Assembly: GCF_030814715.1 (NCBI RefSeq)
Contig: NZ_JAUSVO010000001.1
Span: 992,001 to 1,056,000, forward strand
Length of the DNA: 64,000 nucleotides
Direction of reading: 5' to 3'
DNA from: Kaistia dalseonensis
Lineage (GTDB): Bacteria; Pseudomonadota; Alphaproteobacteria; Rhizobiales; Kaistiaceae
Positions within the stretch are counted from its first letter, which is position 1, and each line of letters opens with the position of its first letter. Made by a program: the position numbers and the translations under genes. Under the pieces are notes generated by a model, which worked only from the letters and a program-made list of their open reading frames with translations, searched no databases and was not told the origin of the DNA. Of this stretch, positions 44,302 to 61,414 are shown piece after piece.

Positions 44302-45492
44302 TCATGTCTCTGAACCCCAGGGGCTGTGGCCGGACGCCAGTGCGGAGCGGATCGACCTGTCCGAGCTGCCGAGGTCCGGGCTGGCGGTTTCGGCGACGGC
44401 CGGCTCGCCGTCGAAGACGATCGGGGAGCGGACGGAGGGGACAGTCGAGCCGTCGTCCCGGGCGAGGGCGCGCGCCATGCCGCGATGGACGACCTGCGGA
44501 TCGGCGAAGACGCCTTCGAGATCGTTGATGGGGCCGGCCGGGACGCCCGCCTGCTCCAGCGCCGCCAGCATGTCGGCGGAGGAGCGGTTCGCGATCGCCT
44601 CGGCGAGGATCGGGACCAGTTCGGAACGGTTGGCGACGCGGGCGGCATTGGTGGCGAAACGCGGATCGGCCGATAGCAGGTCGAGGCCGAGCATCGTGCA
44701 GATACGGCGGAACTGGCCGTCATTGCCGGAGGCGATGATGATGTCGCGATCGGCCGTGCGGAAGAGCTGGTAGGGCACGATGTTGGGATGGGCATTGCCG
44801 AGGCGATGCGGCGGCACGCCAGAGGCCAGATAGTTCATCGCCTGGTTGGCCAGCACGGCAACCTGCGTATCGAGCAACGCCATGTCGATATGGACGCCCG
44901 CCCCCGTATCGCGGCGCTGGTAGAGCGCGGCGACGATCGCGTTCGAGGCATAGAGGCCGGTGAAGATATCGGCATAGGCCACGCCAACCTTCTGCGGCTC
45001 GCCATCTGGCTCGCCTGTCAGGTCCATGATGCCGGCCATGCCCTGGATGATGAAATCATAGCCGGCGCGCGGCGCATAAGGCCCGTCCTGGCCGAAGCCG
45101 GTAATGGAGCAATAGACCAGGGCCGGATTGACGGCGCTGAGGCTCGCATAGTCGAGCCCGTATTTCTTCAGACCGCCAACCTTGTAGTTTTCGAGCACGA
45201 CATCAGCCTCGGCGGCGAGCGCCAGGACCATGGCGTGATCCTCGGAATTGTCGAAATCGGCCGTGACCGAGCGCTTGCCGCGATTGGTCGAATGGAAATA
45301 GGCGGCGGTCTTGCCTGCCCCGTGCTCGCCCGGAATGAAGGGCGGTCCCCAGGCCCGCGTATCATCGCCGGCGCCGGGTCGCTCGACCTTGACGACATCG
45401 GCACCGAGATCGGCCAGGAGTTGGCCCGCCCAGGGTCCGGCGAGGACACGGGCGAGTTCCAGAACGCGAACACCCTTGAGCGGCTTCATCAT
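44302..45492 (-). CDS. CaiB/BaiF-type CoA-transferase, probably glutarate CoA-transferase
   Basis: A 396-residue class III CoA-transferase. The N-terminal PLKGVRVLELARVLAGPWAG and the catalytic aspartate in VAYADIFTGLYASNA (near residue 167) are typical. It begins at an ATG directly after the TGA of the acyl-CoA dehydrogenase; a second ATG follows at 45489. Pairing with glutaryl-CoA dehydrogenase recalls SUGCT-type enzymes that transfer CoA to glutarate. So I infer that it activates glutarate from a CoA donor such as succinyl-CoA. Other C5-dicarboxylates are possible. Confidence 0.85.
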   Translation of the reverse strand: MMKPLKGVRVLELARVLAGPWAGQLLADLGADVVKVERPGAGDDTRAWGPPFIPGEHGAGKTAAYFHSTNRGKRSVTADFDNSEDHAMVLALAAEADVVLENYKVGGLKKYGLDYASLSAVNPALVYCSITGFGQDGPYAPRAGYDFIIQGMAGIMDLTGEPDGEPQKVGVAYADIFTGLYASNAIVAALYQRRDTGAGVHIDMALLDTQVAVLANQAMNYLASGVPPHRLGNAHPNIVPYQLFRTADRDIIIASGNDGQFRRICTMLGLDLLSADPRFATNAARVANRSELVPILAEAIANRSSADMLAALEQAGVPAGPINDLEGVFADPQVVHRGMARALARDDGSTVPSVRSPIVFDGEPAVAETASPDLGSSDRSIRSALASGHSPWGSET

Positions 45493-46779
45493 TCAGAACG
45501 CCGCTATGCCGGTGATGGCGCGCCCAATGATCAGCGCGTGGACATCATGCGTGCCCTCATAGGTGTTGACCGTCTCGAGGTTCACCATGTGGCGCATGAC
45601 GGGGAATTCTTCAGAAATGCCGTTGCCGCCATGCATGTCGCGCGCGGCGCGCGCAATATCGAGCGCCTTGCCGCAATTGTTGCGCTTGACGATCGAGATC
45701 ATCTCGGGCGCCAGCTTGCCCTCGTCGAAGAGACGCCCGACGCGCAGCGCCGCCTGCAGGCCGAGCGCGATCTCCGTCTCCATGTCGGCGAGCTTCTTCT
45801 GCACCAATTGCGTCGCGGCGAGCGGCCGGCCGAATTGCTTGCGATCGAGCGTATATTGCCGCGCGGCGTGAAAGCAGGCCTCGGCCGCGCCCATTGCGCC
45901 CCATGAAATGCCGAATCGGGCGCGGTTCAGGCAGCCGAACGGACCCTTGAGCCCGGAGACATCGGGGAGCAACGCGTCTTCCGGCACGACGACGCCGTCC
46001 ATGACGATCTCGCCGGTGATCGAAGCGCGCAGCGAAAGCTTGCCCTTGATCTTCGGCGCCGTCAGCCCGGCCATTCCCTTCTCCAGGACGAAGCCACGGA
46101 TCGCGCCGTCATGCGCATCAGATTTCGCCCAGACGACGAAGACATCGGCGATCGGCGCGTTGGAAATCCACGTCTTGGAGCCCGTCAGGCGGTAGCCGTC
46201 TGCGACCTTCTCGGCCCTGGTCAGCATGCCGCCGGGGTCGGAGCCAGCATCCGGCTCGGTCAGGCCAAAACAGCCGACCCATTCTCCGGTCGCAAGCTTC
46301 GGCAGGTATTTCTTCTTCTGCGCTTCCGAGCCATAAGCGAGGATCGGGTACATCACGAGAGACGACTGCACGCTCATCATCGAGCGATAGCCGCTATCGA
46401 CGCGCTCGACCTCTCGCGCCACCAGGCCATAGGCGACATAGGAGGCACCGGCGCAGCCATATTCCTCCGGCACCGTGACACCGAGCAGGCCCAGTTCACC
46501 GAGTTCGTTGAAGATGGCGCGGTCGGTGTGCTCGTCGGCAAAGGCCTCGATCACGCGAGGCTGGAGCTTCTCCTGGGCATAATCGCGGGCGGTGTCCCGG
46601 ATCATGCGCTCCTCCTCGGTCAACTGGTCGTCGAGCAGGAATGCATCATCCCATTGGAATTTCTGGTAGCCGGCCAAGTCATCCTCCAGCGGAAGCCCGA
46701 TATCGTTGGCGTCGATCTTGATCCGTTCGAGACGGGTTCGCAAACGATGATCGCTCATGAGTTGATGAGCTTTCGTCAT
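45493..46779 (-). CDS. gcdH: Glutaryl-CoA dehydrogenase
   Basis: A 428-residue FAD acyl-CoA dehydrogenase that oxidises and decarboxylates glutaryl-CoA to crotonyl-CoA. Typical GCDH features are [20 protein letters not shown] at the N-terminus, [16 protein letters not shown], and the catalytic glutamate in [20 protein letters not shown] at the C-terminus. The start is placed at ATG 46779; ATG 46758 is also possible and neither has a good ribosome-binding site. An upstream frame extends into the divergent LysR gene. Works with the CoA-transferase downstream. Confidence 0.92.
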
Positions 46780-46825
46780 GAACCAGGCTTGACGGGGCTC
46801 GGGCGCGGGACGAGGAATGAGCGCC

Positions 46826-47773
46826 ATGGAGTCCATGCTCGCCCGCCGTTTCCTGCCGCCGTTCGCCGCGCTCGTCGCCTTCGAGGCGGCGGCCCGCCAT
46901 GGCAGCTTCACCAAGGCGGCCGATGAACTCGACTTGACCCAGGGCGCGATCAGCCGGCAGGTCAAGCTTCTGGAGGATCAACTCGGCCTTGCCCTTTTTG
47001 TCCGCGTCCGGCAACGCGTCGCGCTCACCGATGCCGGCGCGTTCTATGCCGGAGAGATCCGCCAGATCCTGCAGAAATTCGTCTCGGCGACGGCCAATGT
47101 GATCGCCTATCGCGGTCGGGGCGGGCTGCTCTCGATCGCGACGCTGCCGACATTTGGTACGCGATGGCTGGTGCCACGCATTGGCCGCTTCATCGCGCGC
47201 CACCCGCAGGTCGAGATCAGCTTTTCAACGCGCGTGCGACCGTTCGATTTCGCGACCGAGCCCGTCGACGCGGCAATCCATTTCGGGGCCGAAGACTGGC
47301 CGGGCACCACCATGCACCGTCTGATGGGCGAGACACTGGTCGTTGCCGCATCGCCGGCCTTCATCCGCCAGCACGCAGTCGAACGGCCCGGCGATCTCGC
47401 CCGGTTGCCGCTCCTGGTTCAGGCGACCCGGCCGACGGCCTGGGAAGATTATGCCCAACTCGCTCAGATTCCAGATCTTGCGGGTCCCCGGCTTCATTTC
47501 GAGCAATTTGCCCTCGTCCTGCAGGCGGCCGTCGCCTCGATCGGCGTGGCGCTGGTGCCGCATTTTCTCGTGCGGCCGGAACTGGAAGCCGGCAGCCTCG
47601 ACGTGCTGTTCGATGTCCGGCTGGAGACCGAGAAGGGCTACTATCTCGTCTATCCCGAAGGACGCGACCGCCTGCCGGCGCTAGCCGATTTCCGCGACTG
47701 GCTGATCGAGGTGGCCGGTTCAGAAGCCCTGCCCGGTCCGCCTTCATTGACGGCAGAGGCGCCGACCGCATAG
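46826..47773 (+). CDS. LysR-family regulator (GcdR-like)
   Basis: A 315-residue LysR regulator. The DNA-binding domain (residues about 8-67) reads [20 protein letters not shown] and [20 protein letters not shown], the GcvA-like subclass. It diverges from gcdH with only about 46 bp between starts, so it most likely controls gcdH and the CoA-transferase, as GcdR does in pseudomonads. ATG 46826 is chosen with GAGGA upstream; ATG 46817 directly abuts that box. Confidence 0.85.
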
Positions 47774-47790
47774 TTGTTTGTATACAAACG
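47747..47790 (+). promoter_or_regulatory. marR promoter with operator
   Basis: TTGACG (47747-47752), 17-base spacer, ATAGTT (47770-47775), then at once the palindrome GTTTGTATACAAACG (47776-47790). The operator matches those at the fpr and hnr promoters in sequence and position. It overlaps the end of the LysR gene. Confidence 0.65.
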
Positions 47791-47827
47791 GCGATGGCAG
47801 ATCGATGCACAGGGCGGGGAGCACGTC

Positions 47828-48277
47828 ATGACGGATCCGGCGACGATCGGACACGAAGCGAACGCCGCCGATTACGTGCTCGACGATCAGGTCGGCTTCA
47901 TCCTGCGCCAGGTGTCGCAGCGCCATTCGGTGCTCTTCTTGGATCGCTTCGGCGATGTGCTGACGCCGACGCAGTGGGCGTCGATGATCAAGCTCCATGA
48001 GCGCGGTCCGCTCTCGCAGAACCTGCTCGGCCGCATGACCGCCATGGACGTCGCAACGATCAAGGGCGTCATTGACCGGCTGACCGCGCGCGGGCTGACG
48101 GAAGTGCGCCCCGACGAGACGGATGGACGCCGACGGCTGGTGGCGCTGACGGCGGAGGGACACGATCTCGTGTCGGCATGCCTGCCGCTCGCCTCGGCCG
48201 TCACCGAGGATACGCTGGCGCCGCTCAGCAAGGGCGAGCGCGCAAGCCTCCTCGCTTTGCTCAAGAAGCTCCGCTGA
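47828..48277 (+). CDS. MarR-family repressor of the fpr/hnr regulon
   Basis: A 149-residue MarR protein. Helix-turn-helix around residues 55-80 (LSQNLLGRMTAMDVATIKGV), wing DETDGRRRLVALTAEG. The ATG at 47828 has GGGGAG seven bases upstream; a frame opening at 47774 would run through the operator. A TTTGTATACAAA palindrome lies directly before the gene, and near-identical sites sit in the fpr and hnr promoters. This is good evidence that it represses itself and those two units. The ligand is presumably a pathway intermediate, perhaps a hydroxylated nicotinate. Confidence 0.85.
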   Translation: MTDPATIGHEANAADYVLDDQVGFILRQVSQRHSVLFLDRFGDVLTPTQWASMIKLHERGPLSQNLLGRMTAMDVATIKGVIDRLTARGLTEVRPDETDGRRRLVALTAEGHDLVSACLPLASAVTEDTLAPLSKGERASLLALLKKLR

Positions 48278-48313
48278 CGGGTCTGCCATGCGGAAATGGC
48301 GGGGTTCCGCCAA

Positions 48314-48357
48314 TTGACAAGATCCGGCCGCGCTGCAATATTGTTAGCATACAAATG
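48314..48357 (+). promoter_or_regulatory. fpr-side promoter with MarR-type operator
   Basis: TTGACA (48314-48319), 17-base spacer, AATATT (48337-48342), then GTTAGCATACAAATG (48343-48357). The operator directly follows the -10 box. It differs from the hnr operator at a single base. It lies 277 bases upstream of the fpr ATG. Confidence 0.7.
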
Positions 48358-48633
48358 AATAGCGCGCGCCAGGCGAGTCATTCTCCAGAGTATCGGCGAA
48401 TGACGTTTCAATCTTCGGGCTGAAACGGAAAAATGATACCTGGCATTTGACTCCGCTTTGCGGAAAAACGCCACGCAGATGAATTGTGACGATGGCCTGA
48501 TGGATGTCGCATGCGAGGGCAAGCCGATCGGATCGGCAGCCTCCGGCGAATATCGGCCAAACTGCTTCAACCCGCCGGCCACGAACGTCCGTTGGCCGGC
48601 TTATTGATATCCTCTCGGATCAAAGCCGCGGTC
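48358..48633 (+). other. Long leader between operator and fpr
   Basis: If transcription begins at the promoter above, fpr has a 5' leader of about 275 bases (the full gap after marR, 48278-48633, is 356 bp). A 42-codon frame from ATG 48479 to 48607 lacks a ribosome-binding site. I see no riboswitch I can name; a second promoter nearer fpr is equally possible. Confidence 0.4.
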
Positions 48634-49407
48634 ATGAGCAATTTCTACGAAGAAACCGTTCTCAGCGTCCATCACTGGACCGACACGCTCTTCAGTTTCA
48701 CGACGACGCGCGACCCGACGTTCCGCTTCAAGAACGGCCAGTTCACGATGATCGGCATCAAGGTGAACGAGAAGCCGCTGTTGCGCGCCTATAGCGTCGT
48801 CAGCACGAACTATGACGACAATCTCGAATTCTTCTCGATCAAGGTCCCGGACGGTCCGCTGACCTCGAAGCTGCAGAATTTGAAGGTCGGCGATCCGCTC
48901 ATCGTCGGCAAGAAGGCGACCGGCACGCTCGTCCTCGACAATCTGAAGGACGGCAAGCACCTTTATCTGCTCGGCACCGGCACGGGCCTCGCGCCCTTCC
49001 TCTCGATCATCCGCGATCCCGAGACCTATGAGCGCTACGAGAAGGTCGTGCTCGTCCATGGCTGCCGACAGATCTCCGAGCTCGCCTATGGCGAGAAGAT
49101 CACCAAGGATCTGCCGGAAGACGAATTCCTCGGCGACATGATCCGCGAGCAGCTGATCTACTACCCGACGGTCACGCGCGAGCCTTTCCGCAATCGCGGC
49201 CGCATCACCGACCTGATGACCTCGGGCAAGCTCTACGAGGATGTCGGCCTGCCGCCGATGAACGGCGCCGACGACCGTTTCATGCTCTGCGGCAGCCCGC
49301 AAATGCTGGTCGATCTCAAGGCGATTTTCCTCGAGAACAACCTTGTTGAAGGCAATCACGGCGAACCGGGCGACTTCGTCATCGAACGCGCCTTCGTCGA
49401 GCGGTAG
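48634..49407 (+). CDS. fpr: Ferredoxin--NADP+ reductase
   Basis: A 257-residue FAD-dependent reductase of the bacterial FPR type that exchanges electrons between NADPH and ferredoxin or flavodoxin. FAD contact RAYSVVST near residue 50, NADP-binding GTGTGLAPFLSI near residue 115, CGSPQM near 220, and a C-terminal IERAFVER as in proteobacterial FPRs. The ATG at 48634 matches the family start (MSNFYEETVLSVHHWTD). The MarR-type operator upstream matches that of the 6-hydroxynicotinate-reductase gene, which would need reduced ferredoxin. Confidence 0.93.
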   Translation: MSNFYEETVLSVHHWTDTLFSFTTTRDPTFRFKNGQFTMIGIKVNEKPLLRAYSVVSTNYDDNLEFFSIKVPDGPLTSKLQNLKVGDPLIVGKKATGTLVLDNLKDGKHLYLLGTGTGLAPFLSIIRDPETYERYEKVVLVHGCRQISELAYGEKITKDLPEDEFLGDMIREQLIYYPTVTREPFRNRGRITDLMTSGKLYEDVGLPPMNGADDRFMLCGSPQMLVDLKAIFLENNLVEGNHGEPGDFVIERAFVER

Positions 49408-49434
49408 GCCGTTCCCCTCTCAGGTTCACGATTG

Positions 49435-49465
49435 CGTCATTGCCAGGCCCCGCCCGGCAATGACG
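49435..49465. terminator. Bidirectional terminator between fpr and UPF0280
   Basis: CGTCATTGCC and GGCAATGACG, a perfect 10-bp stem with an 11-base GC-rich loop, between convergent genes. The sequence resembles a common dispersed intergenic hairpin. Confidence 0.6.
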
Positions 49466-49474
49466 GCAGCCGGC

Positions 49475-50347
49475 TCATGCCGAGGATCTTTGGAGCAACG
49501 CTCCTTGCCCCTCCGCCACGCGTGTAGAGCCCTGGAGATGCAGCGCCGCCGACACGATCAGGCCGCGAGCCTGCAACTGGCCGGCCATGGCGACACCGCG
49601 CCTCAGCGCTTCCTCGACATCGCTGTCCGCTAGTCTGCCGACATCGCGCGTCACCAGCCGGGCTCCGAGATCGCTGTCGGGCTGAATGTCCGTGCCCGGT
49701 TCCCGAATGATCGCCGGATGATCCGGCAGGTCGACCGCATTGGCGATGACGGTTGCGGCCGCGTCGGCCATGGCTGCACTCGCGGCGAGCACCGTCACCG
49801 CGTCGGCTATGCCGAGCGAGAAGCTGCGGCCCCGACGGCCGCTGGTCGCGATGCCGCGGATGGGATCCGCCTCCGAAATCTCCGTCGTTCCAAAGAGGCC
49901 CGGACGGTCCGGCCGATCGACGAGGCCGATACGGAAGCGCTCGCCGGGCGCGAGATGCAGCGCGATGTCGCCGCCATTATTGACGAAGGCACGGTCGAGC
50001 CGGGCGCCATCCAGCATCGCGCCGAGGATTTCCTCGGCCACGGCACCTGCCACGGCCGCCATCGGCGTGATGAAGATGTCGGCTGCGAAAGGCATGACAG
50101 CTGCCAGCATGCGCCGCGCGACGACGCCGTTCGGTGGCAGATGGCTGGGACCCGCCGGCGCGCGCAGCATGAGGAGTTCGTCGCAGAGCTCCTGCAACAG
50201 GCCATCGAAACGGCGGACCGCACCGGCATAAGCTGCAGCGACGGCCGTATCGGTCCCGAAGGCGCCAATTACCAAGTCGATCGGCCCCTGCTGCAGGTGC
50301 AGCCGTCGCCCATCTGGCAGCATGCGCGCGACGGGCGGATCGAACAT
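49475..50347 (-). CDS. UPF0280-family protein (ApbE-like fold)
   Basis: A 290-residue UPF0280 (COG2122) protein. The segment FITPMAAVAGAVAEEIL and later RAFVNNGGDIALHL recall the flavin-transferase ApbE superfamily, where a similar NxGGD loop binds FAD. No signal peptide, so it is cytoplasmic. It starts ten bases after the hydroxynicotinate-reductase gene with GAGG upstream, forming a two-gene operon. I infer a role in cofactor handling or maturation for the reductase; no activity is established that I know of. Confidence 0.8.
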   Translation of the reverse strand: MFDPPVARMLPDGRRLHLQQGPIDLVIGAFGTDTAVAAAYAGAVRRFDGLLQELCDELLMLRAPAGPSHLPPNGVVARRMLAAVMPFAADIFITPMAAVAGAVAEEILGAMLDGARLDRAFVNNGGDIALHLAPGERFRIGLVDRPDRPGLFGTTEISEADPIRGIATSGRRGRSFSLGIADAVTVLAASAAMADAAATVIANAVDLPDHPAIIREPGTDIQPDSDLGARLVTRDVGRLADSDVEEALRRGVAMAGQLQARGLIVSAALHLQGSTRVAEGQGALLQRSSA

Positions 50348-50357
50348 GGCAGTTGCC

Positions 50358-51866
50358 TCAGCCGATCGCGTGCCGGAGGCCGCCCGGCTGCATTGGCCAT
50401 GGATTGTCGCGATGGGGCACGACGCTGCGACGGCCCTCCCCGGTCAGGCTCGAGAGTGGGCGCACGCAGTCCATATAGCCGCCCAGCGCCTCATAGTCGG
50501 AGAGCTTGAGCGTGAATTCGATCGGCGCCACCAATGCGGGCGTCGGCACATAGCCGAAGGCGTTTTCCGGCAGGCGCGTCACGTCGACCATGAAGGTGAT
50601 GCCGCCGCCGGGCCAGACGTAGACTGGCGCGCCGCCGCATGTGACGGATGTCAGCGCGTCCTTGACCGAGCGGGTCAGGCGAACGGGATTATCCGTCACA
50701 CCGGCCCGCAGCGAACCGCCGGCGCCAGCCATGAAGAGAACTGTGGAAAGCGCGGGCTCGCAATTCTCCGCGATGCGCTCGACGGCGCTGACCAGCACGT
50801 CCGGCATCTCGACCTGGACCGGCCGAAGATCGTCGTCGAGCTGATAATAGGCCGAATGCTCGCCCGTCGTGGAGGTCATCAGCAGCCTGAGGCCCGGATA
50901 GGCGACCTTGGGATCGAACGGCCCGAGGATCGAGAGAGGATCGTCGATATCCGTGCCGCCCCATCCGGTCCCCGGCTGTGCGACCTGGAAATAGCGCCCC
51001 GGCGTCGAGCGGCGGCCTTTCAGCTTAATGCCCGTATCGGGAATGCCGAGCAGCTTGCCCGCCTGGTGTTCCGACAGGACGCCGGTGATGTGATCGTCGA
51101 CGACGACGACCTCGTCGGCCTTGCCGAGCCATTGCTTGGCGAAGATGCCGATGGTGGCCGAACCGCAGCCGACACGCATGCGCGTCTCGGTCTGGCCGTT
51201 CACGATCGGCGGCTTGCCGGCTTCCACGATCAGCGTCGCGCCGCCATCGATCGTCATCTCGACGGCCTTGCCGTTGCAGAGTTCGAGCAACGCGTCACAG
51301 GTGACGCGACCCTCTTTCTTCGAGCCGCCGGTCAGATGGTGCACGCCGCCGAGCGACAGCATCTGCGAGCCGTATTCGCCGGTGGTGACATGGCCGATCG
51401 CCTCGCCCGCCACGCGCACCAGGCTCGTCTCCGGCCCGACGAAGCGGTCGGTATCGATCTTCACCTTGACGCCGCAATAGCTGAAGATGCCCTCGGTCAC
51501 GACCGTGACCATGTCGACGCCATCAACCTCCGACGAGACGATGAACGGCGCGGGCTTATAGTCGGGATAGGTCGTGCCGGCACCAATCGCGGTGACGAAG
51601 GTGTTGCCCTCACGCACGACGCTGCCATCCCAGGCGCCCGAGCGGGCGAAGGGAACGAGTTCGCCGCCCTGCTCCAGCGTGCGCTCCAGCAGCACATGCG
51701 GATCGACCCGGACGAGCGCGCCATCGGCGTTGGCGTAGCGATCACAGGCGCCCGTGGCACCCGGCCGGATGTAACACATCACCGGACAGGCATCGCAGCG
51801 GATCTTGTCGTCCTTGGCCGGCATGGCCTCGGAAGCGAGAGGCGCGGCTTCGTCACGCAGAGACAT
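50358..51866 (-). CDS. 6-hydroxynicotinate reductase-like iron-sulfur protein
   Basis: A 502-residue protein matching the 6-hydroxynicotinate reductase family named from Eubacterium barkeri. That enzyme uses reduced ferredoxin to convert 6-hydroxynicotinate to 1,4,5,6-tetrahydro-6-oxonicotinate. An N-terminal C24-x2-C27-x3-C31-x9-C41 cluster (RCDACPVMC) probably binds [4Fe-4S]. Further conserved-looking stretches are TEGIFSYCGVKVKIDTDRFV, GGVHHLTGG, RVGCGSATIG and VWPGGGITFMVDV. The frame starts at ATG 51866. The promoter carries a MarR-type operator shared with fpr. Family assignment is good; the actual substrate here is unproven. Confidence 0.78.
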   Translation of the reverse strand: MSLRDEAAPLASEAMPAKDDKIRCDACPVMCYIRPGATGACDRYANADGALVRVDPHVLLERTLEQGGELVPFARSGAWDGSVVREGNTFVTAIGAGTTYPDYKPAPFIVSSEVDGVDMVTVVTEGIFSYCGVKVKIDTDRFVGPETSLVRVAGEAIGHVTTGEYGSQMLSLGGVHHLTGGSKKEGRVTCDALLELCNGKAVEMTIDGGATLIVEAGKPPIVNGQTETRMRVGCGSATIGIFAKQWLGKADEVVVVDDHITGVLSEHQAGKLLGIPDTGIKLKGRRSTPGRYFQVAQPGTGWGGTDIDDPLSILGPFDPKVAYPGLRLLMTSTTGEHSAYYQLDDDLRPVQVEMPDVLVSAVERIAENCEPALSTVLFMAGAGGSLRAGVTDNPVRLTRSVKDALTSVTCGGAPVYVWPGGGITFMVDVTRLPENAFGYVPTPALVAPIEFTLKLSDYEALGGYMDCVRPLSSLTGEGRRSVVPHRDNPWPMQPGGLRHAIG

Positions 51867-51961
51867 GGCGACCCCATCAATGGCTGCCGGCCCCTGCCCA
51901 CTCCGCGCTTTGGCGACGCTCAGGCTGGCCCGGTCAGGCCGGAGGAACTGCTCGGGAAACT

Positions 51962-52006
51962 CATTTGTATACTAACATTATTCCAATGAAGGGAAACCGC
52001 TGTCAA
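51962..52006 (-). promoter_or_regulatory. hnr promoter with MarR-type operator
   Basis: On the minus strand: TTGACA (52006-52001), 18-base spacer, AATAAT (51982-51977), then GTTAGTATACAAATG (51976-51962) directly after the -10 box. Same layout as the fpr and marR promoters. The ATG follows about 95 bases later. Confidence 0.72.
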
Positions 52007-52031
52007 GCCGTGAGGCGCGGCGGTTTCGGGA

Positions 52032-52385
52032 TCACGGCGCCAGCGCCTCCGCATAACTCTCCGGCTTGAACCCGACGAGAAGCCGACCGTCGCCGAGATC
52101 GAGCACCGGCCGCTTGATCATCGAGGGCTGGGCCAGCATCAGTCCGATCGCCTTCTCCGTGTCGAGATCCTGTTTCGCCTCATCCGGCAATTTTCGAAAC
52201 GTCGTGCCGACGCGGTTGAGAACTGTTTCCCAGCCGAATGTGGCGACCCATTGGTCGAGATGCGCACGGTCGATGCCCTCGGCCTTGTAGTCGTGGAACG
52301 CATAGGCCACGCCATGCTCGTCCAGCCAGAGCCGGGCTTTCTTCATCGTGTCGCAGTTCTTGATGCCATAGATCGTGATGGTCAC
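52032..52385 (-). CDS. ArsC/Spx-family protein YffB-like
   Basis: A 117-residue thioredoxin-fold protein of the ArsC family, YffB/Spx branch. ITIYGIKNCDTMKKARLWLD carries the single active-site cysteine, where classical arsenate reductase has CxxS-type neighbours, and the RPVLDLGDGRLLVGF segment contains the conserved R-P. The GTG at 52385 is chosen because AGGA lies six bases before it and the length then fits the family; an ATG at 52433 gives an unusual tail. No ars genes are nearby, so arsenate reduction is unlikely. Role unknown. Confidence 0.8.
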   Translation of the reverse strand: MTITIYGIKNCDTMKKARLWLDEHGVAYAFHDYKAEGIDRAHLDQWVATFGWETVLNRVGTTFRKLPDEAKQDLDTEKAIGLMLAQPSMIKRPVLDLGDGRLLVGFKPESYAEALAP

Positions 52386-54765: not shown

Positions 54766-55728
54766 TCAGGCCGAGGCGGAGGGGCGGCAGAGCGAGGGAA
54801 CGAGAAGTTCGAAGAAGCGCGTCGCGTTGACGGCGCTCGCCGCCTTGATCGTCGGCAGATGCGTCCAGCGGAAATTGTCGCGCCGGTCGACGACGGTCTG
54901 GCCGAGGGTCAGCGAGGATTGTGTCTCGACCGCGACCTGGATGTCTTCAAGCGTCACGAAAGCAGGATCGATCGCGGCGGCTACAGCGAGCGAATCGATC
55001 AACCCGCAATAGGATTTGAAGCCCCTCCGCTCGACGAATGCGACCACGCCGAGAAGGAATTCAGCCGCCGGCGTCGCCGCTGCCTCAAGCGTTTTTCGAT
55101 CGGTAGCGCCGAGCTCGATCGTGCTGTGCGTGACCACGTCGAGGCCGAGCGCCGTCAGATTGAAGCCCGCCTTGAAGACGATATCGGCCGCTTCCGGATC
55201 GACATAGATGTTCCATTCGCTGGCCGGATTGTCGCCCGTCGCCCGCGTCGATCCCTCGCTCTGGAAGCCGAACGCGCCCCCGATGATGATCAGTTCCTTC
55301 ACCTTCCTGGGCAGGTCGGGATCTTTGATCGTGGCGAGCGCGATGTTGGTCAGCGGACCGAGCGCCAGGATGGTGAGGTCGCCGCCTTCGGCATTGGCCG
55401 TCTCGACGATGAGGTCCGGCGCAAAGCGCGGGTCGATCGCACGGGTCGACGGCGCGAGGCGCAGTTCGCCGAGACCGTCATCGCCATGGGAGAACGGATC
55501 GCGCGGATAGGGTCGAACCAACGGCTTCAGCGGGCCCATGGCGACGGGAATGGCCGGCGCACTGAAGCGGTCGAGCACCCGCGTCGCATTATCGGCGCAG
55601 CGGTCGGCGGTGAGATTGCCTGATACCGTCGTAATGGCGCGGATCGCGAGCTTGCCGGACCCCATCGCGAAGGCAATGGCGACGGAATCGTCAATGCCGG
55701 GATCGCAGTCGATCAGGATCGGTTTCAT
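54766..55728 (-). CDS. Nucleoside hydrolase (IunH/RihA-C family)
   Basis: A 320-residue inosine-uridine preferring nucleoside hydrolase. The calcium-binding cluster at the N-terminus is DCDPGIDDSVAIAFAM (residues 6-21). TTVSGN, LALGPLTNIA and SEWNIYVDPEAADIVF follow. It splits ribonucleosides into base and ribose. Its ATG overlaps the TGA of the PfkB-ARH fusion gene (TGATG), so the two are translationally coupled. The precise nucleoside cannot be predicted. Confidence 0.9.
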   Translation of the reverse strand: MKPILIDCDPGIDDSVAIAFAMGSGKLAIRAITTVSGNLTADRCADNATRVLDRFSAPAIPVAMGPLKPLVRPYPRDPFSHGDDGLGELRLAPSTRAIDPRFAPDLIVETANAEGGDLTILALGPLTNIALATIKDPDLPRKVKELIIIGGAFGFQSEGSTRATGDNPASEWNIYVDPEAADIVFKAGFNLTALGLDVVTHSTIELGATDRKTLEAAATPAAEFLLGVVAFVERRGFKSYCGLIDSLAVAAAIDPAFVTLEDIQVAVETQSSLTLGQTVVDRRDNFRWTHLPTIKAASAVNATRFFELLVPSLCRPSASA

Positions 55729-57563
55729 CAGGCGACGTCCTTGTTCGAGGTCTGGATGTGGGTACGGGCGGCGGCCGCGAGGCGTTCGGCCCAGCGGTCG
55801 ACATCGAGCGCGTTCACCTCTGCCACCGTCTGCCGCCATTCGGCCGGGATAGCGCCCTCGCCGGCATAGGCGCCACAGATCGCGCCCGCCATGGCGGCTA
55901 TCGTGTCCGTATCGCCGCGCAGATTGCCCGCAATCTCGATCGCGACCCTGGGATCGCCCTTGGCGTAATCGGCGATCGCAATGGCGGCCGGCACGGATTC
56001 CGTCGTCGGCTCGCCAGCGCCCACAATGTCGGAGATCAGGCGGACGAGTTCGACCTTGGATCGGGCTCCGGCGGCGAGCCGCCGGCCATGCTCGATCCGC
56101 GAGGCGACATCGGCGGAATAGATCCAGTTGCCCCGCCGCTGGCCGATCCGGGCGCCCTCGAGCGCCTGCTCCATCACATGGTCCCAGTCCTTGCCGGCAA
56201 TGGCGGCTGCAATGGCGGCCGCGAGCGCATTGGCGCCGGAAATAGCCGGGCTCGTATTGTGGGTCGGCAGGCAGGCGGTCGTGACGATATCGGTGAGCCT
56301 CTCCAGCGAGAGACCGGCCAATGCGCCAAAGACGCCAATCGGCGCAATGCGCATGGCCGCGCCATTGGTCACGCCGAACTTGCCGATCTCCTCGACCGGA
56401 GCGCCGGCCTGATAGGCCATCAGCGCGCGCTTGGTGCTCGGTCCGACGGCGAGCGAGTTCTCGCCGCCAACGCCGACGAACCACTCATTCAGCCGGGCAG
56501 CTACCGTCGCGGGGCCGAAGCCGTCTTCGAGCGCGTCGGTCAGCGCCAGGGCCTGCTCAGTATCGTCGGTGATCCGCCCCGCGGGGTAGCCGGCATGATA
56601 GGGGCTGTCGGCCGGACCGGGCTGCATCGTCATCCGCCAGGGCGGCGCCGGCAGGAAGGAATTCGGCATGCCGAACGCGTCGCCGCAGGCCGTGCCCCAC
56701 AGCGCGCCGCGCACGCGCTCCTCGAACGTCGGTGGCGCATCGACCGCGGGTTCTGTCACGAAAGCCGCCCATGAGCCCCAGCCCTCGCAGGCCCTCGCCG
56801 CGATTTCCGCGGCAATCCGCCCGGCATCGGCATTCGAATCGCCCTGCAGCGTGCGGGCGAGAAACGTGCCGCCGAATGTGTCGCCCGCGCCCGTCGTATC
56901 GACGACATTGGCCTTCACGGCTGCAATCGGGATTTCCGCGCTGTTCTGGCGAATGACGGCGCCTTCTTCGCCGCGCGTAACGACGAGCGTCGACGCGGCA
57001 AGCGTTCCGAGCGTCTCGAACTGACGCTCATCGACGATGACCGTGTGCCAGCGATGCCGGCGGGCCTCCAGCGCCGGCTCGCCGACCAGGCTTGCCGCAA
57101 TGCCACGCCGTTCTGCGGCGGCCAGCAGGATCTCTGTCCACTCGCCCCAGACCGGGGCGATGATGAGATGGGTGACATCGGCGAGGATCGCTTCGACATC
57201 ATAGGGGCGAACGCTGAGCAGCCGCGTGGACCAGGACGATCGTCGTTGGCCGTCATAAACCATGACACAGCGGGCCGGCTCGTCGCTGACACGGGGCGAG
57301 CGAGAGAGATCGACACCAGCCTGCCGGAGCATGGTCAGCGTCGCCTCATGCGACCCCTCCGCCGGCAAGGGATGCCAGAGCGCGGCCGGCAGGCCCTGAT
57401 GGCGTAGCGCGAGCGCGATGGTCATCGCCGCGCCGCCAGGCAGCCACTCTCCCGAAGCGCTGGGGTTCGGATAGAGCACAGCCACCTCCGACGAGCCCGG
57501 ATGGCGATCCGCCGCGAAGATCAGATCGAACATAGCTGCGCTGCCAGCGACGAGAATCGTCAT
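55728..57563 (-). CDS. PfkB sugar kinase fused to ADP-ribosylglycohydrolase-family domain
   Basis: A 611-residue fusion. Residues 1-265 are a PfkB/ribokinase-type kinase with LPGGAAMTIALAL and the catalytic DTTGAGDTFGG (D228). Residues about 283-605 are an ADP-ribosylglycohydrolase-family domain: RGALWGTACGDAFGMP, metal ligands in RITDDTEQALALTDAL, and LRGDTDTIAAMAGAICGAYA. The start at ATG 57563 is set by AAAGGA seven bases upstream. E. coli encodes the two as separate neighbours (yegV, yegU). The domain fusion implies that the ARH product or substrate also serves the kinase. Coupled to nucleoside hydrolase. Confidence 0.88.
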   Translation of the reverse strand: MTILVAGSAAMFDLIFAADRHPGSSEVAVLYPNPSASGEWLPGGAAMTIALALRHQGLPAALWHPLPAEGSHEATLTMLRQAGVDLSRSPRVSDEPARCVMVYDGQRRSSWSTRLLSVRPYDVEAILADVTHLIIAPVWGEWTEILLAAAERRGIAASLVGEPALEARRHRWHTVIVDERQFETLGTLAASTLVVTRGEEGAVIRQNSAEIPIAAVKANVVDTTGAGDTFGGTFLARTLQGDSNADAGRIAAEIAARACEGWGSWAAFVTEPAVDAPPTFEERVRGALWGTACGDAFGMPNSFLPAPPWRMTMQPGPADSPYHAGYPAGRITDDTEQALALTDALEDGFGPATVAARLNEWFVGVGGENSLAVGPSTKRALMAYQAGAPVEEIGKFGVTNGAAMRIAPIGVFGALAGLSLERLTDIVTTACLPTHNTSPAISGANALAAAIAAAIAGKDWDHVMEQALEGARIGQRRGNWIYSADVASRIEHGRRLAAGARSKVELVRLISDIVGAGEPTTESVPAAIAIADYAKGDPRVAIEIAGNLRGDTDTIAAMAGAICGAYAGEGAIPAEWRQTVAEVNALDVDRWAERLAAAARTHIQTSNKDVA

Positions 57564-57596
57564 CGCATATCCTTTCCGGCTCATCCGAATTCATGT

Positions 57597-57633
57597 TTGG
57601 CGCTTAGAAGAGGTATAGTCTATAATACCTCTT
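57597..57633. promoter_or_regulatory. GntR operator in divergent promoter
   Basis: AAGAGGTAT and ATACCTCTT (57608-57616 / 57625-57633) form a perfect inverted repeat with an 8-base spacer, of the GGTATA-type seen for HutC/UTRA GntR regulators. TTGGCG (57597-57602), 18 bases, TATAAT (57621-57626) would be a plus-strand promoter lying under it. Confidence 0.7.
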
Positions 57634-57717
57634 GCGATCAAGAGCCACGGGATCAAAACGCTTGCCTGCAACCGCGTGACAGGGCACCCAGTCTGCGAGA
57701 GGACCGAAGGGGAAAGA

Positions 57718-58485
57718 ATGCGATCCGAACCGATCATCCAGGTTGACCGCGACCTGATCGACCACGCCTCGCCGGTCCCCGTCTTCATGCAGGTCGAGCA
57801 GGATCTGCGCCGTCAGATCCTGAATGGCGCGCTGAAAAGCGGCGGACGACTGCCGCGCGAGACGGAACTCGCCAAGCTCTATGGCATCAGCCGCATGACC
57901 GTGCGCCGCGCCCTGGAAGGGCTCGCCGATGCGCGTCTCGTGCGCCGCGCCCATGGCGTCGGCACGATCGTGACGCCCCCGCCCCTGCCCGTCACCTGCG
58001 ATCTCGGCCTGATGATCAGCTTCGCCGAACAGCTTCGCCGCCAGGGTCATGAGGCGGCAACCACGGTCGACATGCAGGCACGGGTCGTTCCGCCGGCCCA
58101 GATACGCCAGGCGCTCGCCATAGACGACACTGAACAGACCGTGGTGATCCGCCGCGTCATCGCCATCGACCATCGCCCGATCGTGATGAATACGTCATGG
58201 CTGCCGGCAGCGCTTTTTCCCGGGCTCGACCGGGAAGAACTCTCCGGCGGGTCTCTCTGGAGCACGCTTCTCGCCCGCTACGATGTGCGGACGGTCCGCG
58301 CGGACAACATGGTGGAACTGGTGAACGCCTCGGCCGACGAGGCCCGCCTTCTCCATGTCGAAGAAGATGCTCCGCTGCTGCGGCTGACCGGCACGGTGTT
58401 CGGCGAGAACGACCGGCGCCTCGAATATTCAACGGCGCTCTGGGCCGGCAATGTGCGGTTCCATTTCCTGTCGCAGACGAGTTGA
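57718..58485 (+). CDS. GntR/HutC-family regulator with UTRA domain
   Basis: A 255-residue regulator. The winged helix (about 20-85) includes LRRQILNGALKSGGRLPRET and LAKLYGISRMTVRRALEGLA. The UTRA ligand-binding domain covers about 105-245. The ATG at 57718 follows AAGGGGAAAG. It diverges from the PfkB-ARH/nucleoside-hydrolase operon across a palindromic operator and so probably represses that operon and itself. Position and domain type match E. coli YegW, which lies beside yegTUV. Confidence 0.88.
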   Translation: MRSEPIIQVDRDLIDHASPVPVFMQVEQDLRRQILNGALKSGGRLPRETELAKLYGISRMTVRRALEGLADARLVRRAHGVGTIVTPPPLPVTCDLGLMISFAEQLRRQGHEAATTVDMQARVVPPAQIRQALAIDDTEQTVVIRRVIAIDHRPIVMNTSWLPAALFPGLDREELSGGSLWSTLLARYDVRTVRADNMVELVNASADEARLLHVEEDAPLLRLTGTVFGENDRRLEYSTALWAGNVRFHFLSQTS

Positions 58486-58520
58486 CGGCCGCCAATTTCG
58501 TCTGGTTCGATCGCGCGTGG

Positions 58521-59249
58521 TCAGCCTCTCTGGGCCTCGCGCAATTCGCGCAGCGGCGCGGCGTCCATGATCGATGGATCCACCAGATCCCAGGCGAGCG
58601 AGGCTGGCTGAACGCGGGCGCCGGTCATGAGCGTGCGCGTCGGCGTCACGATGATGTCGGCGGTCACATCGGATGAGCCGACAGGCAGGTCTTCCTCGGC
58701 GAGTTGGATATCGTGGACGATCGCCGCGACCGGGGTCGCTGCCCCCACGACGCCGATCTCCGAGAAGATGCCCCATTCGAGATCGAGATAGGCATGGCCC
58801 ATCCCGAAGCGCAGGCCTCTCCGCGTGATGGCCGACGCGCCGGCAATGACGAGGTCGAAGACGCCATGCGCGCGCAATTCGGCCAGCGAGACGAGCCGGC
58901 CGAAGTGATCGACGCCGTCGAGCCAGGCCGCGAAGGGTGCGTCGCCGGCCGGCACGTCGGCGGGATCGAGCAGGATGAAACCGCGATGGAGGCCGTAAGA
59001 CGGCAGGACCATCGTCTTGCCATCCTCGATCAGGCGGCGGCGAAGGGGAACGAGCCCGTTATCGGGCGTGACGAAGACGTGCCGGGCCGCCGCATAGACG
59101 GGCTCCGCCGCGAGGCGCTCGGCAGCTATGTCACCGCCCTCAAAGCCGGGAATGAACTGCGTGAAGTCGAAATGGAAACGCGAATCCGGCTGCGCATGGA
59201 GCCGCATTTCGCGGCTGATCGCCTCGGCTATGGTCCGTCTGGCGGACAT
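58521..59249 (-). CDS. 5-formyltetrahydrofolate cyclo-ligase-like protein
   Basis: A 242-residue protein of the 5-FTHF cyclo-ligase (COG0212) superfamily. FHFDFTQFIPGFEGGDIAAE is the N-terminal signature of a distinct subgroup, and RRGLRFGMGHAYLDLEWG resembles the C-terminal ATP/glycine-rich motif of cyclo-ligases. The typical N-terminal lysine/arginine ATP loop is not evident. ATG 59249 is preceded by AGGAA eight bases upstream. It lies at the end of the sugar-transport operon, suggesting a catabolic rather than folate role. Substrate unknown. Confidence 0.7.
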   Translation of the reverse strand: MSARRTIAEAISREMRLHAQPDSRFHFDFTQFIPGFEGGDIAAERLAAEPVYAAARHVFVTPDNGLVPLRRRLIEDGKTMVLPSYGLHRGFILLDPADVPAGDAPFAAWLDGVDHFGRLVSLAELRAHGVFDLVIAGASAITRRGLRFGMGHAYLDLEWGIFSEIGVVGAATPVAAIVHDIQLAEEDLPVGSSDVTADIIVTPTRTLMTGARVQPASLAWDLVDPSIMDAAPLRELREAQRG

Positions 59250-59283
59250 GTCCTTGGTTCCTGATGCAGGGAAGAGGATAGGC

Positions 59284-59308
59284 TGCGCCGCCGGGAGAGA
59301 GCGGCGCA
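59284..59308. terminator. Intercistronic hairpin after binding-protein gene
   Basis: TGCGCCGC and GCGGCGCA, perfect 8-bp stem with a 9-base loop, between the binding-protein stop and the cyclo-ligase-like gene. Confidence 0.45.
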
Positions 59309-59339
59309 ACCGGATCGTCGCTGGAACCGCGCAAATGGC

Positions 59340-60278
59340 TCAGCAGCCGGCCTTGTATTCGTACTTGTCCGCCATTTCGGGCTCAGACGCCTTGATCGTC
59401 ACGATCTCGGTGAACGTCGTCTTCTCAACCGGCTTTCCAGCGGCCAGCGCGGCGGCGGTTTCCACGGCGAGTTCGCCCTCGCGGCGCGGATCCTGCGCGA
59501 TCAGGGCATGGATCTGGCCGTTCTTGAGCGCGCTCACCTCGGGGCCGGCGGCATCATAGGCCACAACCTTCACGGCTCCCGCGTTCGCCTGCCGCAATCC
59601 GGTGACGGCGCCGATGGCGCCCAGATCGTTCGTCACGAATATGCCCGCGACGTCGGGATCCTTTGCGAGGATCGCCGTGATCATCTCGGTCGCTTGCTGC
59701 GGGTTCGTATAGAACTGCTGTCCGAGATAGGTGATTCCTGGATAGCCCTTGATCTCGGCTTCGAAGCCGGCGGTGCGCTCGTCCTGGGCCGTCGTGCCGG
59801 GCGGGTTGGTCATGACGACAACCTTGCCCTTGCCGGCGAGGAGCTCGTTCATCGCGATGGCAGCGCGCTTGCCGCCTTCCTTGTTGTCCGTGACGATCCT
59901 CGTCTTGACGAAGCTGTCGTCATTGATCGTCTGATCGGCCGTCAGCACATGGATGCCGAGGGAATCGAGCTGCTTCATCGGGGCGATCAGCGCCTGCGCG
60001 TCGACGGGAACGATAGCGGCTGCGGTGGGCTTCGCGGCCGCTATGGCATTGACGATCGGGATCTGCTGGTCCGGGCCCCACTGATCGGATGCCGATACCG
60101 TCAGATCGATGCCGAGCTCGGCTGCCTTCGCCTTCGCGCCACAGGCCATGGCTTCGTAGAAGGGGCTGCCCTTCACGCCCAGCACGAGCGCTAGGCTCGT
60201 ATCGGCGGCAAAGGCCGGTCCGGTGGCGAGGGTCGCCGCAATCGTAGCGAACACCGCAATATGTGAAACGCGCTTCAT
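59340..60278 (-). CDS. Ribose-type ABC periplasmic binding protein
   Basis: A 312-residue periplasmic sugar-binding protein of the RbsB family (peripla_BP_4). Signal peptide MKRVSHIAVFATIAATLATG, cleavage near AFA-AD at residue 25. LVLGVKGSPFYEAMACGAKA is the usual first ligand strand, followed by PVDAQALIAPMKQLDSLGIH and VTNDLGAIGAVTGLRQA. Ligand likely ribose or a furanosyl compound, inferred from family and from the nucleoside hydrolase and kinase nearby. Flanked by hairpins on both sides. Confidence 0.87.
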   Translation of the reverse strand: MKRVSHIAVFATIAATLATGPAFAADTSLALVLGVKGSPFYEAMACGAKAKAAELGIDLTVSASDQWGPDQQIPIVNAIAAAKPTAAAIVPVDAQALIAPMKQLDSLGIHVLTADQTINDDSFVKTRIVTDNKEGGKRAAIAMNELLAGKGKVVVMTNPPGTTAQDERTAGFEAEIKGYPGITYLGQQFYTNPQQATEMITAILAKDPDVAGIFVTNDLGAIGAVTGLRQANAGAVKVVAYDAAGPEVSALKNGQIHALIAQDPRREGELAVETAAALAAGKPVEKTTFTEIVTIKASEPEMADKYEYKAGC

Positions 60279-60312
60279 GTCCTTGTTCCTTCTCTGGCTG
60301 GTCTCGTGATGT

Positions 60313-60335
60313 CCGGGTGCCGTTTCCGGCCCCGG
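60313..60335. terminator. Hairpin between permease and binding-protein genes
   Basis: CCGGG-T-GCCG-TTTC-CGGC-CCCGG: nine base pairs with one bulged T. Probably separates expression of the abundant binding protein from the permease. Confidence 0.4.
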
Positions 60336-60352
60336 ATTCGTGGTTCTTGGCT

Positions 60353-61414
60353 TCAGGCGCGCTCGCGGGCGCGTCGCTTGAGCTGATCGGTGAAGACCGA
60401 AATGATGAGCACCGCCCCCATCGCGACGGTCTGCCAGAAGGGCGGGATGCCGATGATGACGAAGCCGTTCAGCAGCACGATCGGAATGAACACGCCGATG
60501 ACGGTGCCGATGATGCTGCCGGTGCCGCCGAAGAGGCTCGTGCCGCCGAGAATGACGGCGGAAATGGTGGCGAGATTGTCCATGGCGTGGCCAGCGATGG
60601 TCGTCGTGCCGTAGCGAGCGAGCGACATGATCGCCGCGACGCCGGCAAGCCCGCCCGAGATCGCATAGATGACGATCAGCCTCTGCGCGATGCGGATGCC
60701 GCTCCGCCGCGCCGCCTCGCTATTGGAGCCGATCGCGTAGACATGGACGCCGAAGCGGGTGAGATGCAGGACGATCGCGCCGAGGATCGCCGTCAGGACC
60801 GCGATCTGAACCAGATTGGGCAGGCCGAAGAGACCCACCCCGCCCAGCCCCATGACCAGAAGCTCGGGGACTGCCCTGACGTCGATGCCTCCCGTCAGGA
60901 TCTGGGCGCCCCCGAGCGCCATGCCGAGCGTTCCGAGCGTCACGATCAACGGAGGTATCCGCGCGACCGCAACCAGGAATCCGTTGAGCGCGCCCCAGAG
61001 CGCGCCGGACAGGATGGCAGCCACTGCGCCAATGACCACCACGCCGAGACTGGCATTGGTCGTGCCATAGGCGCCGCCGCCCTGATCGCCGGCGAGCATG
61101 AGCATGACGCGCGCAGCGACAACAGAGGAAAAGACGAGCACGGCCCCAATGGAAAGATCGACGCCGGCCGCGATCATGACGAAGGTCTGCCCGACAGCAA
61201 GAACGAGCAGGATCGCCGCATTGACCGCGATATTGGACAGGTTGAAGGAGGAGCCGAACTGCGTCGGCCGCAGGATCGTGAAGATCGCGATCAGTGCGAT
61301 CAGCAGCAGGAAAACCCAGCCGCCGCCGACCAGACGGCTCCAGTCTCTCGGGGCGCCTTCCTCGGCCGCAACATCGGACGATGCTGTTCCGATTTTCCGC
61401 CAGCCAATGTTCAT
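60353..61414 (-). CDS. Ribose-type ABC permease
   Basis: A 353-residue permease of the RbsC family (BPD_transp_2), about nine segments after a 30-residue cytoplasmic N-terminus. Typical stretches are GQTFVMIAAGVDLSIGAVLV and NGFLVAVARIPPLIVTLGTL, plus ILGGTSLFGGTGSIIGTVIG. The gene overlaps the ATPase gene by four bases (ATGA). As the only permease in the operon it should homodimerise, as RbsC does. Confidence 0.9.
   Translation of the reverse strand: MNIGWRKIGTASSDVAAEEGAPRDWSRLVGGGWVFLLLIALIAIFTILRPTQFGSSFNLSNIAVNAAILLVLAVGQTFVMIAAGVDLSIGAVLVFSSVVAARVMLMLAGDQGGGAYGTTNASLGVVVIGAVAAILSGALWGALNGFLVAVARIPPLIVTLGTLGMALGGAQILTGGIDVRAVPELLVMGLGGVGLFGLPNLVQIAVLTAILGAIVLHLTRFGVHVYAIGSNSEAARRSGIRIAQRLIVIYAISGGLAGVAAIMSLARYGTTTIAGHAMDNLATISAVILGGTSLFGGTGSIIGTVIGVFIPIVLLNGFVIIGIPPFWQTVAMGAVLIISVFTDQLKRRARERA

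Follow-up and report, generated by a model that had tools for sequence, protein, structure and literature searches.

Nicotinate catabolism offers two close points of comparison among regulators of the MarR family. BpsR of Bordetella is a MarR-family regulator of nic genes that is released by 6-hydroxynicotinate, which it contacts through Tyr15, His23, Arg26 and His32, while NicR of Pseudomonas putida is a MarR-like repressor of nic genes (both as far as PMC6837509 describes them). For a reductive route, the main text of PMC3511419 describes a nicotinate cluster in Azorhizobium caulinodans and Bradyrhizobiaceae strain SG-6C, predicted to lead via 1,4,5,6-tetrahydro-6-oxonicotinate to glutarate; no instance of 'MarR' or 'ferredoxin' came up when that text was searched by word. 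Here we describe a stretch of 64,000 nucleotides (nt) of Kaistia dalseonensis DNA (contig NZ_JAUSVO010000001.1, positions 992,001 to 1,056,000), referred to as the window. In it, a MarR-family gene (marR, at 47828), a gene for a ferredoxin--NADP reductase-like flavoprotein (fpr) and a putative 6-hydroxynicotinate reductase gene followed by a UPF0280-type gene (hnr-UPF0280) are preceded by three promoters that share one palindrome. From sequence comparison we hold it highly probable that this MarR is a local repressor of nicotinate catabolism, which would act on marR, fpr and hnr-UPF0280 through the palindrome and be released by 6-hydroxynicotinate, with Fpr feeding Hnr. A literature search, in which few subscription papers were within reach, found no description of this operator or regulon.

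The three operator sequences and their coordinates (Table 1), given in an earlier note on this DNA, were borne out on checking. That note had also placed each operator directly after the -10 hexamer, which holds for fpr and hnr, whereas at marR one base lies between CATAGT and the operator. Its spacer of 17-18 nt likewise stands for fpr (17) and hnr (18) but falls at marR, where the 17-nt reading (ATAGTT) was rejected because a 16-nt spacer yields the better -10, CATAGT. Measured from the first T of TTGAC, the operator lies at a distance of 29 nt for marR, 29 nt for fpr and 30 nt for hnr, and the palindrome of operator 1 starts 52 bp before the marR start codon. When 47600-52100 was scanned for promoters blind to the motif, three sigma-70-like promoters were returned, precisely these three (shuffle mean 0.8), and the same scan gave no terminator-like site. 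The whole window holds six motif matches at up to 3 mismatches, three of them with 0, against a shuffle mean of 1.25; none of 100 shuffles reaches six.

Table 1. Predicted regulatory sites and genes of the window (window coordinates; aa, amino acids)
Feature	Position	Strand	Remarks
Predicted promoter of marR	47747..47774	+	TTGACG-16 nt-CATAGT, at 3' end of lysR frame
Putative operator 1, GTTTGTATACAAACG	47776-47790	+	First 14 bases form a perfect palindrome
marR, MarR-family regulator	47828..48277	+	149 aa; predicted pocket residues Y16, F24, R27, H33
Predicted promoter of fpr	48314..48342	+	TTGACA-17 nt-AATATT
Putative operator 2, GTTAGCATACAAATG	48343-48357	+	291 nt before fpr start codon
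fpr, ferredoxin--NADP reductase-like flavoprotein	48634..49407	+	257 aa; best NCBIfam model 166 bits, below cut-off 390
Putative operator 3, GTTAGTATACAAATG	51976-51962	-	14-base core GTTAGTATACAAAT, 51963..51976
Predicted promoter of hnr-UPF0280	51977..52006	-	TTGACA-18 nt-AATAAT
hnr, putative 6-hydroxynicotinate reductase	50358..51866	-	502 aa; CDACPVMC motif; named by resemblance to the published cluster
UPF0280-type gene, downstream of hnr	49475..50347	-	NF003322, 406.5 bits, cut-off 290
CoA-transferase family III gene, regulon neighbour	44302..45492	-	Best NCBIfam model succinate--glutarate CoA-transferase, 580 bits, below cut-off 750
Acyl-CoA dehydrogenase frame, regulon neighbour	45493..46965	-	Glutaryl-CoA dehydrogenase among models, none above cut-off; provisional start codon

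Within the 5.18-Mb genome, the tight motif GTTWGYATACAAAYG, searched at up to 2 mismatches, has 0 mismatches only at the three sites of the window, each at a promoter, which meets the concern raised earlier that it might be common genome-wide outside promoters. At that tolerance ten strand-wise matches are found; six lie outside the three sites, all with 2 mismatches, the reverse strand of the first site matches with 1 mismatch, and the reversed pattern gives seven matches. Two further places were left out of the count. One, ATTGGTATACCAAT at C1:1067952, outside the window, fits the loose palindrome and has no TTGAC within 45 nt on either side, and the other, GTTTGTATACAAAG at C5:201545, was read as coding sequence.

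What recurs beyond this genome is the promoter and the palindrome as a unit. In 342 operator flanks (up to 60 nt; 171 distinct operator contexts), 93 of the 124 occurrences of TTGAC start 28-31 nt before the operator (27, 7, 48 and 11 at the successive distances), while the reversed control word CAGTT occurs 15 times in the same flanks, once at 28-31 nt. The search for motif plus TTGAC in this genome and its relatives that the earlier note had proposed was run as TTGACN{23,26}RTTNGNNTACNAAY over 297 genomes of the order; 32 of them together have 50 matching places, and the reversed pattern matches at 9. K. dalseonensis itself accounts for four of the 50 composite matches: the three in the window, within 4.3 kb, and one at C1:1259806, TTGACA-24 nt-GTTTGACTACGAAC, directly before a nucleoside hydrolase gene. 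The regulon probably has at least one further member in its own genome, this nucleoside hydrolase gene near nicAB-type genes. Gene content was examined around 30 of the 50 places, the K. dalseonensis locus included. A homolog of a cluster gene (hnr, fpr, ferredoxin, ATP-binding cassette (ABC) binding protein, amidohydrolase, MarR or hydroxylase subunits) lies within about 3 kb at 24 of the 30 and at none of the other six (L193, L196, L206, L207, L208, L212). At L191 the homolog is present yet not downstream of the site; at L188 and L189 the site heads an operon beginning with an FAD-binding molybdopterin dehydrogenase subunit gene, and at L207 it precedes a gene for an extracellular solute-binding protein. 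Among the 297 genomes, hnr (E<=1e-50) is present in 72 and MarR (E<=1e-20) in 80, hnr accompanying MarR in 70 of those 80. The composite match coincides with hnr in 28 of its 32 genomes (Fisher 9e-16, relatedness ignored) and with MarR in 28 as well; in the 9 control-pattern genomes hnr occurs in none and MarR in one. The geometry of promoter and operator, its conservation, and the co-occurrence of operator, MarR and Hnr are thus plain from the letters themselves, and the shared module is taken to be real and probably functional.

Orthologous loci were compared in a set made of the best 80 of 587 confirmed hnr matches (the named loci) and seven loci of relatives (L041-L047), 87 loci and 1.59 Mb in all; because the named loci are the best 80 matches, the set leans to close relatives. 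Orthologs of hnr are found in 7 of 61 genomes, K. dalseonensis included. The pattern RTTNGTATACNAAY occurs with 0 mismatches at 95 places in 54 of the 87 loci, where five control patterns score 0 each, and with up to 1 mismatch at 180 places in 73 loci (controls 2 to 4). The earlier view that three such sites are hard to explain by chance is borne out by the exact matches. Of 79 loci scored for hnr, 58 (from 14 of 30 genera or groups by title) have an operator with up to 1 mismatch in the 450 bp upstream of the gene; for fpr, over the same distance, the figures are 34 of 36 loci and 8 of 9 groups. These counts leave out genes starting within 100 bp of a locus end and matches covering half of the query or less. 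The site is thus conserved upstream of orthologs, one of the points on which the earlier note had let its reading stand or fall. At the two fpr misses, L049 and L050, a ferredoxin gene sits between a 0-mismatch operator and fpr.

In 21 loci hnr has no operator nearby. In stretches of up to 8 kb upstream of these genes, the operator pattern occurs at 15 places and the five controls at 0, 0, 2, 0 and 0. Twelve of the loci (L049, L105, L106, L108, L111, L112, L114, L115, L117, L118, L119, L126) have a place with up to 1 mismatch 3.6-4.1 kb upstream, preceded at 27-31 nt by TTGAC in nine of them (all but L105, L117 and L118). In L049, L105, L106, L112, L114, L118 and L126 a nicA homolog lies between the distant place and hnr, so that the operator in these loci is probably at the head of an operon of hydroxylase and hnr genes. 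Neither a MarR ortholog nor a site with promoter occurs in the stretches of the acidobacterial loci L105, L107, L109, L110, L113, L117 and L121, and the places in L105 and L117 may be due to chance. L127 has fpr and marR together in a single unit that runs divergently from hnr, and one operator stands between the two. Two operator-like palindromes 14 bp apart precede fpr in the Bradyrhizobium loci L062, L078, L081, L083, L085, L088, L092, L093 and L116, one of them perhaps serving fpr and the other the divergent amidohydrolase gene.

The regulator itself contains a MarR winged-helix domain above the curated cut-offs (PF01047, 36 bits against 24.6; PF12802, 29 against 27). Of the 80 named hnr loci, 59 encode a MarR with an identity of 44% or more, about 1 to 9 kb from hnr, and MarR is present in 64 of the 87 loci overall; in three relatives (L043, L044, L045) its gene lies between hnr and UPF0280. 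In the 13 congeners, the MarR relatives (about 34-39% identical) have a best upstream match of 3-6 mismatches in all 13 and are treated as paralogs for that reason. Among solved structures, 2nnn is the best match (E 1.9e-37), followed by 6pcp (E 2.8e-21) and 6pco (E 5e-21), the latter two of which we take to be BpsR, in keeping with the residue numbering in PMC6837509. In an alignment with BpsR, residues Y16, F24, R27 and H33 of the window MarR fall at the contact positions that the paper gives for 6-hydroxynicotinate. Three of the four contacts are kept, so 6-hydroxynicotinate is the likely inducer; the protein is not classed as a BpsR-type sensor, for which all four would be needed, though it does share with such sensors the link to nicotinate degradation genes. 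The combination YFRH is found in 62 of 65 MarR sequences, the window's included, and the three exceptions, with YFRA, are the proteins of genomes G031, G045 and G046.

The presence of fpr in this regulon had been thought unusual for a housekeeping-type gene. The gene is not out of place, however, and its housekeeping nature is doubtful: fpr is the single match in its genome at E<=1e-20, one such match occurs in 2 of the 12 congeners searched, and in many relatives the gene belongs to the nicotinate cluster. It lies within the stretch in 38 of the 86 loci with any cluster gene, many stretches ending short of its usual place. In three loci from Chelatococcus and Bosea (L049, L050, L051), a frame for a ferredoxin of 109 aa sits between a 0-mismatch operator and fpr, which are about 520, 450 and 410 nt apart, respectively, and L194, a locus of the pattern-only survey, has a ferredoxin homolog after its operator. 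The Hnr of Eubacterium barkeri uses ferredoxin. Fpr and ferredoxin probably supply electrons to 6-hydroxynicotinate reductase, to judge from this gene order, and such a supply would resolve the surprise at a housekeeping fpr. The fpr leader (48358-48633) is long: the operator ends about 276 nt ahead of the start codon, while in most Bradyrhizobium loci it stands 65-105 nt in front of fpr. An RNA element in this leader was considered and rejected, as no Rfam family scores above threshold in it (one sub-threshold match) and its fold z-score is -1.5.

Several observations weigh against a single MarR regulon of this kind and are best considered together. The looser palindrome RTTNGYATACNAAY, at up to 1 mismatch, has 27 strand-wise matches in the genome against 18 for the reversed pattern, so that only the tight motif, or the motif together with its promoter, is specific; alone, the loose palindrome also occurs at one place each in 3 of 13 congeners without hnr. 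Elsewhere in K. dalseonensis, the candidate site before nicA (GTGTGTGTACAAAC, with TTGCCA upstream) is weak, and a search at up to 2 mismatches finds no site at the amidohydrolase/AA_synth locus (L142). A strict composite match is missing from 44 of the 72 hnr genomes and 52 of the 80 MarR genomes, although the strict pattern misses variants, for example those with GTACAC cores. By title, 39 of the 80 named loci are Bradyrhizobium, so the counts are not independent. Nine of the 21 hnr misses (L084, L107, L109, L110, L113, L120, L121, L122, L124) have no place in up to 8 kb upstream, with less than 6 kb searched for L109, L113, L120, L122 and L124. The self-site is rare, being found (up to 1 mismatch, within 450 bp upstream of marR) in just 3 of the 64 loci with MarR. 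As to the pocket, one of the four contacts known from BpsR, in the account of PMC6837509, is altered (His23 to Phe24). Finally, the MarR orthologs of G031, G045 and G046 come with no recognisable operator at hnr or marR; L043 (G031) and L044 (G046) each have one 1-mismatch place 7.5 kb upstream of hnr, with no TTGAC in the preceding 60 nt, and L045 (G045) has none.

These points have to be set against what other readings of the sites could offer. That chance palindromes happen to fall on chance promoter-like sequences is scarcely credible. AT-rich palindromes do readily overlap sequences resembling a -10, and the excess of the loose palindrome over its control in this genome is modest (27 to 18), yet four composite matches in one genome, three of them within 4.3 kb, stand against nine control matches in 297 genomes, and the module is conserved at orthologous promoters. 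That the palindrome serves another regulator as its operator, for example a protein of GntR/HutC type, we find very improbable. The window encodes one at 57676, which carries GntR and UTRA domains; GTATAC-like cores are common for this family, and the core of the palindrome resembles the sites that we associate with it. In a tblastn comparison with the 87 loci, the window GntR and the neighbouring LysR have no match at E<=1e-5 (best 0.18), whereas MarR tracks hnr, and more distant MarR paralogs (about 35% identical) have such palindromes before their own genes, with 0-1 mismatch in L037 (G054) and L040 (G046) and 2 mismatches in L035 (G043). With no homolog of either in the 87 loci at that threshold, both the window GntR/HutC protein and LysR were rejected as binders, other GntRs being outside the comparison.

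A more serious alternative keeps MarR as the protein that binds these sites but gives it a ligand other than 6-hydroxynicotinate, which could be nicotinate, the reduced product or some general aromatic acid. Phe takes the place of the BpsR His at pocket position 24, 2nnn comes ahead of 6pcp and 6pco as the closest solved relative, and a site at the nucleoside hydrolase gene would also suit an inducer from further upstream in the pathway. With three of the four 6-hydroxynicotinate contacts kept and MarR accompanied by hnr in 70 of 80 genomes, we regard this as unlikely, though a possibility to be taken seriously.

The same promoter-palindrome module stands at nicotinate genes of many relatives, so that the palindrome is very probably where one local repressor binds, a repressor that would also control the electron-supplying enzyme; the comparative data, in operator conservation and in the co-occurrence of operator, MarR and Hnr, agree with the small regulon of marR, fpr and hnr-UPF0280 that had been proposed. 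From them we infer binding, repression rather than activation, the inducer and the electron path. A MarR dimer would bind RTTNGYATACNAAY immediately downstream of the -10 and, as the palindrome there lies over the start-site region, would block promoter opening or escape at marR, fpr and hnr-UPF0280. Hydroxylation of nicotinate would give 6-hydroxynicotinate, which would most likely enter the pocket formed by Y16, R27 and H33 and release the repressor; Hnr would then reduce 6-hydroxynicotinate with electrons passing from NADPH through Fpr and ferredoxin.

A broader reading, to which we give an even chance, is that the regulon is a scavenging unit leading from NAD-derived nucleosides to glutarate, in which one 6-hydroxynicotinate-sensing MarR would switch the reductase, a dedicated NADPH-ferredoxin supply and, in K. 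dalseonensis, a nucleoside hydrolase. On the same even terms, the supply would consist of Fpr with or without the 109-aa ferredoxin, which is of two-cluster type, and the nucleoside hydrolase would free nicotinate or nicotinamide from its riboside. If the scavenging unit is real, then in Hyphomicrobiales and some Rhodospirillales the aerobic Hnr should be ferredoxin-dependent, with Fpr feeding it. The aerobic reductive route of nicotinate gains a predicted repressor, operator and inducer, and a low-potential electron source for the reductase is suggested because Fpr, and in some relatives a ferredoxin, come under the same switch. Moreover, across the order the promoter-operator pattern could help in annotating nicotinate genes, among them those for transporters and hydroxylases.

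The remaining genes show how the pathway is laid out. Hnr gave no Pfam, NCBIfam or PDB match at the thresholds used; the family is a large one, occurring in 72 of the 297 genomes, yet neither Pfam nor NCBIfam offers a curated model for it. The gene downstream of it, for which UPF0280 is presumably the right label, is found in 76 of the 80 named hnr loci; it matches ApbE (PF02424) below threshold, a hint that its role may have to do with flavin. In relatives, hnr stands beside a molybdenum hydroxylase, as expected of an Hnr, and a nicA homolog is present in 78 of the 87 loci. In the Bradyrhizobium locus L061, for example, nicB-nicA is divergent from hnr-UPF0280-AA_synth-binding protein-fused permease-two ATPases-marR, followed by an amidohydrolase gene divergent from fpr; the genes divergent from hnr are nicA-like (2Fe-2S) and nicB-like (MoCoBD plus cytochrome c). 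The pathway genes found in K. dalseonensis are spread over three places. Its nicB-like gene (C1:1260892, 63% identity) is about 220 kb from hnr, in a region (C1:1253-1273 kb) with a nicAB-type hydroxylase (NicB 63%), a nucleoside hydrolase, an amidase and an ABC transporter. In another region, C5:319-339 kb, an amidohydrolase gene (74% to L061) and two AA_synth (PF06684) genes lie at L142:5000-19000 together with genes for an isochorismatase-family hydrolase, a nucleoside hydrolase and a second MarR. With hnr in none of the 13 congeners, the module was either gained by K. dalseonensis or lost by the others.

Glutarate-type genes adjoin the regulon, the CoA-transferase and acyl-CoA dehydrogenase genes of Table 1, and the published cluster is predicted to end in glutarate (main text of PMC3511419). 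No operator match at up to 3 mismatches is found at either gene, and the membership of both in the regulon is conjectural. Further along the window, 54769-62220 encodes a nucleoside hydrolase, a 618-aa protein combining PfkB and ADP-ribosylglycohydrolase, the GntR/UTRA regulator, a 5-FTHF cyclo-ligase-family gene and a ribose-type ABC transporter; this looks like a set for the salvage of ADP-ribose or NAD-derived nucleosides.

How the locus stands to the described systems can now be put more closely. The cluster of SG-6C and A. caulinodans, whose SG-6C Hnr protein is put at 42% to the E. barkeri enzyme in the main text of PMC3511419, differs from that of K. dalseonensis, where the pathway genes are split over three places. 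The best structural match, 2nnn, is a probable transcriptional regulator of Pseudomonas aeruginosa (the organism as named in PMC6837509) and differs in having Tyr instead of His at the fourth pocket position. With NicR, compared by its description in PMC6837509, the window MarR shares a MarR-like nature and a place in nicotinate catabolism. The likeness to BpsR, as that paper portrays it, goes further: the MarR family (E 2.8e-21), Tyr15, Arg26 and His32 kept as Y16, R27 and H33, and targets in nicotinate degradation. The differences are Phe24 in place of His23 and a target set of hnr, of the reductive route, and fpr, as opposed to the nic genes of Bordetella. The regulator is thus predicted to act like BpsR and NicR, but with one residue of the BpsR pocket lost and a different set of targets.

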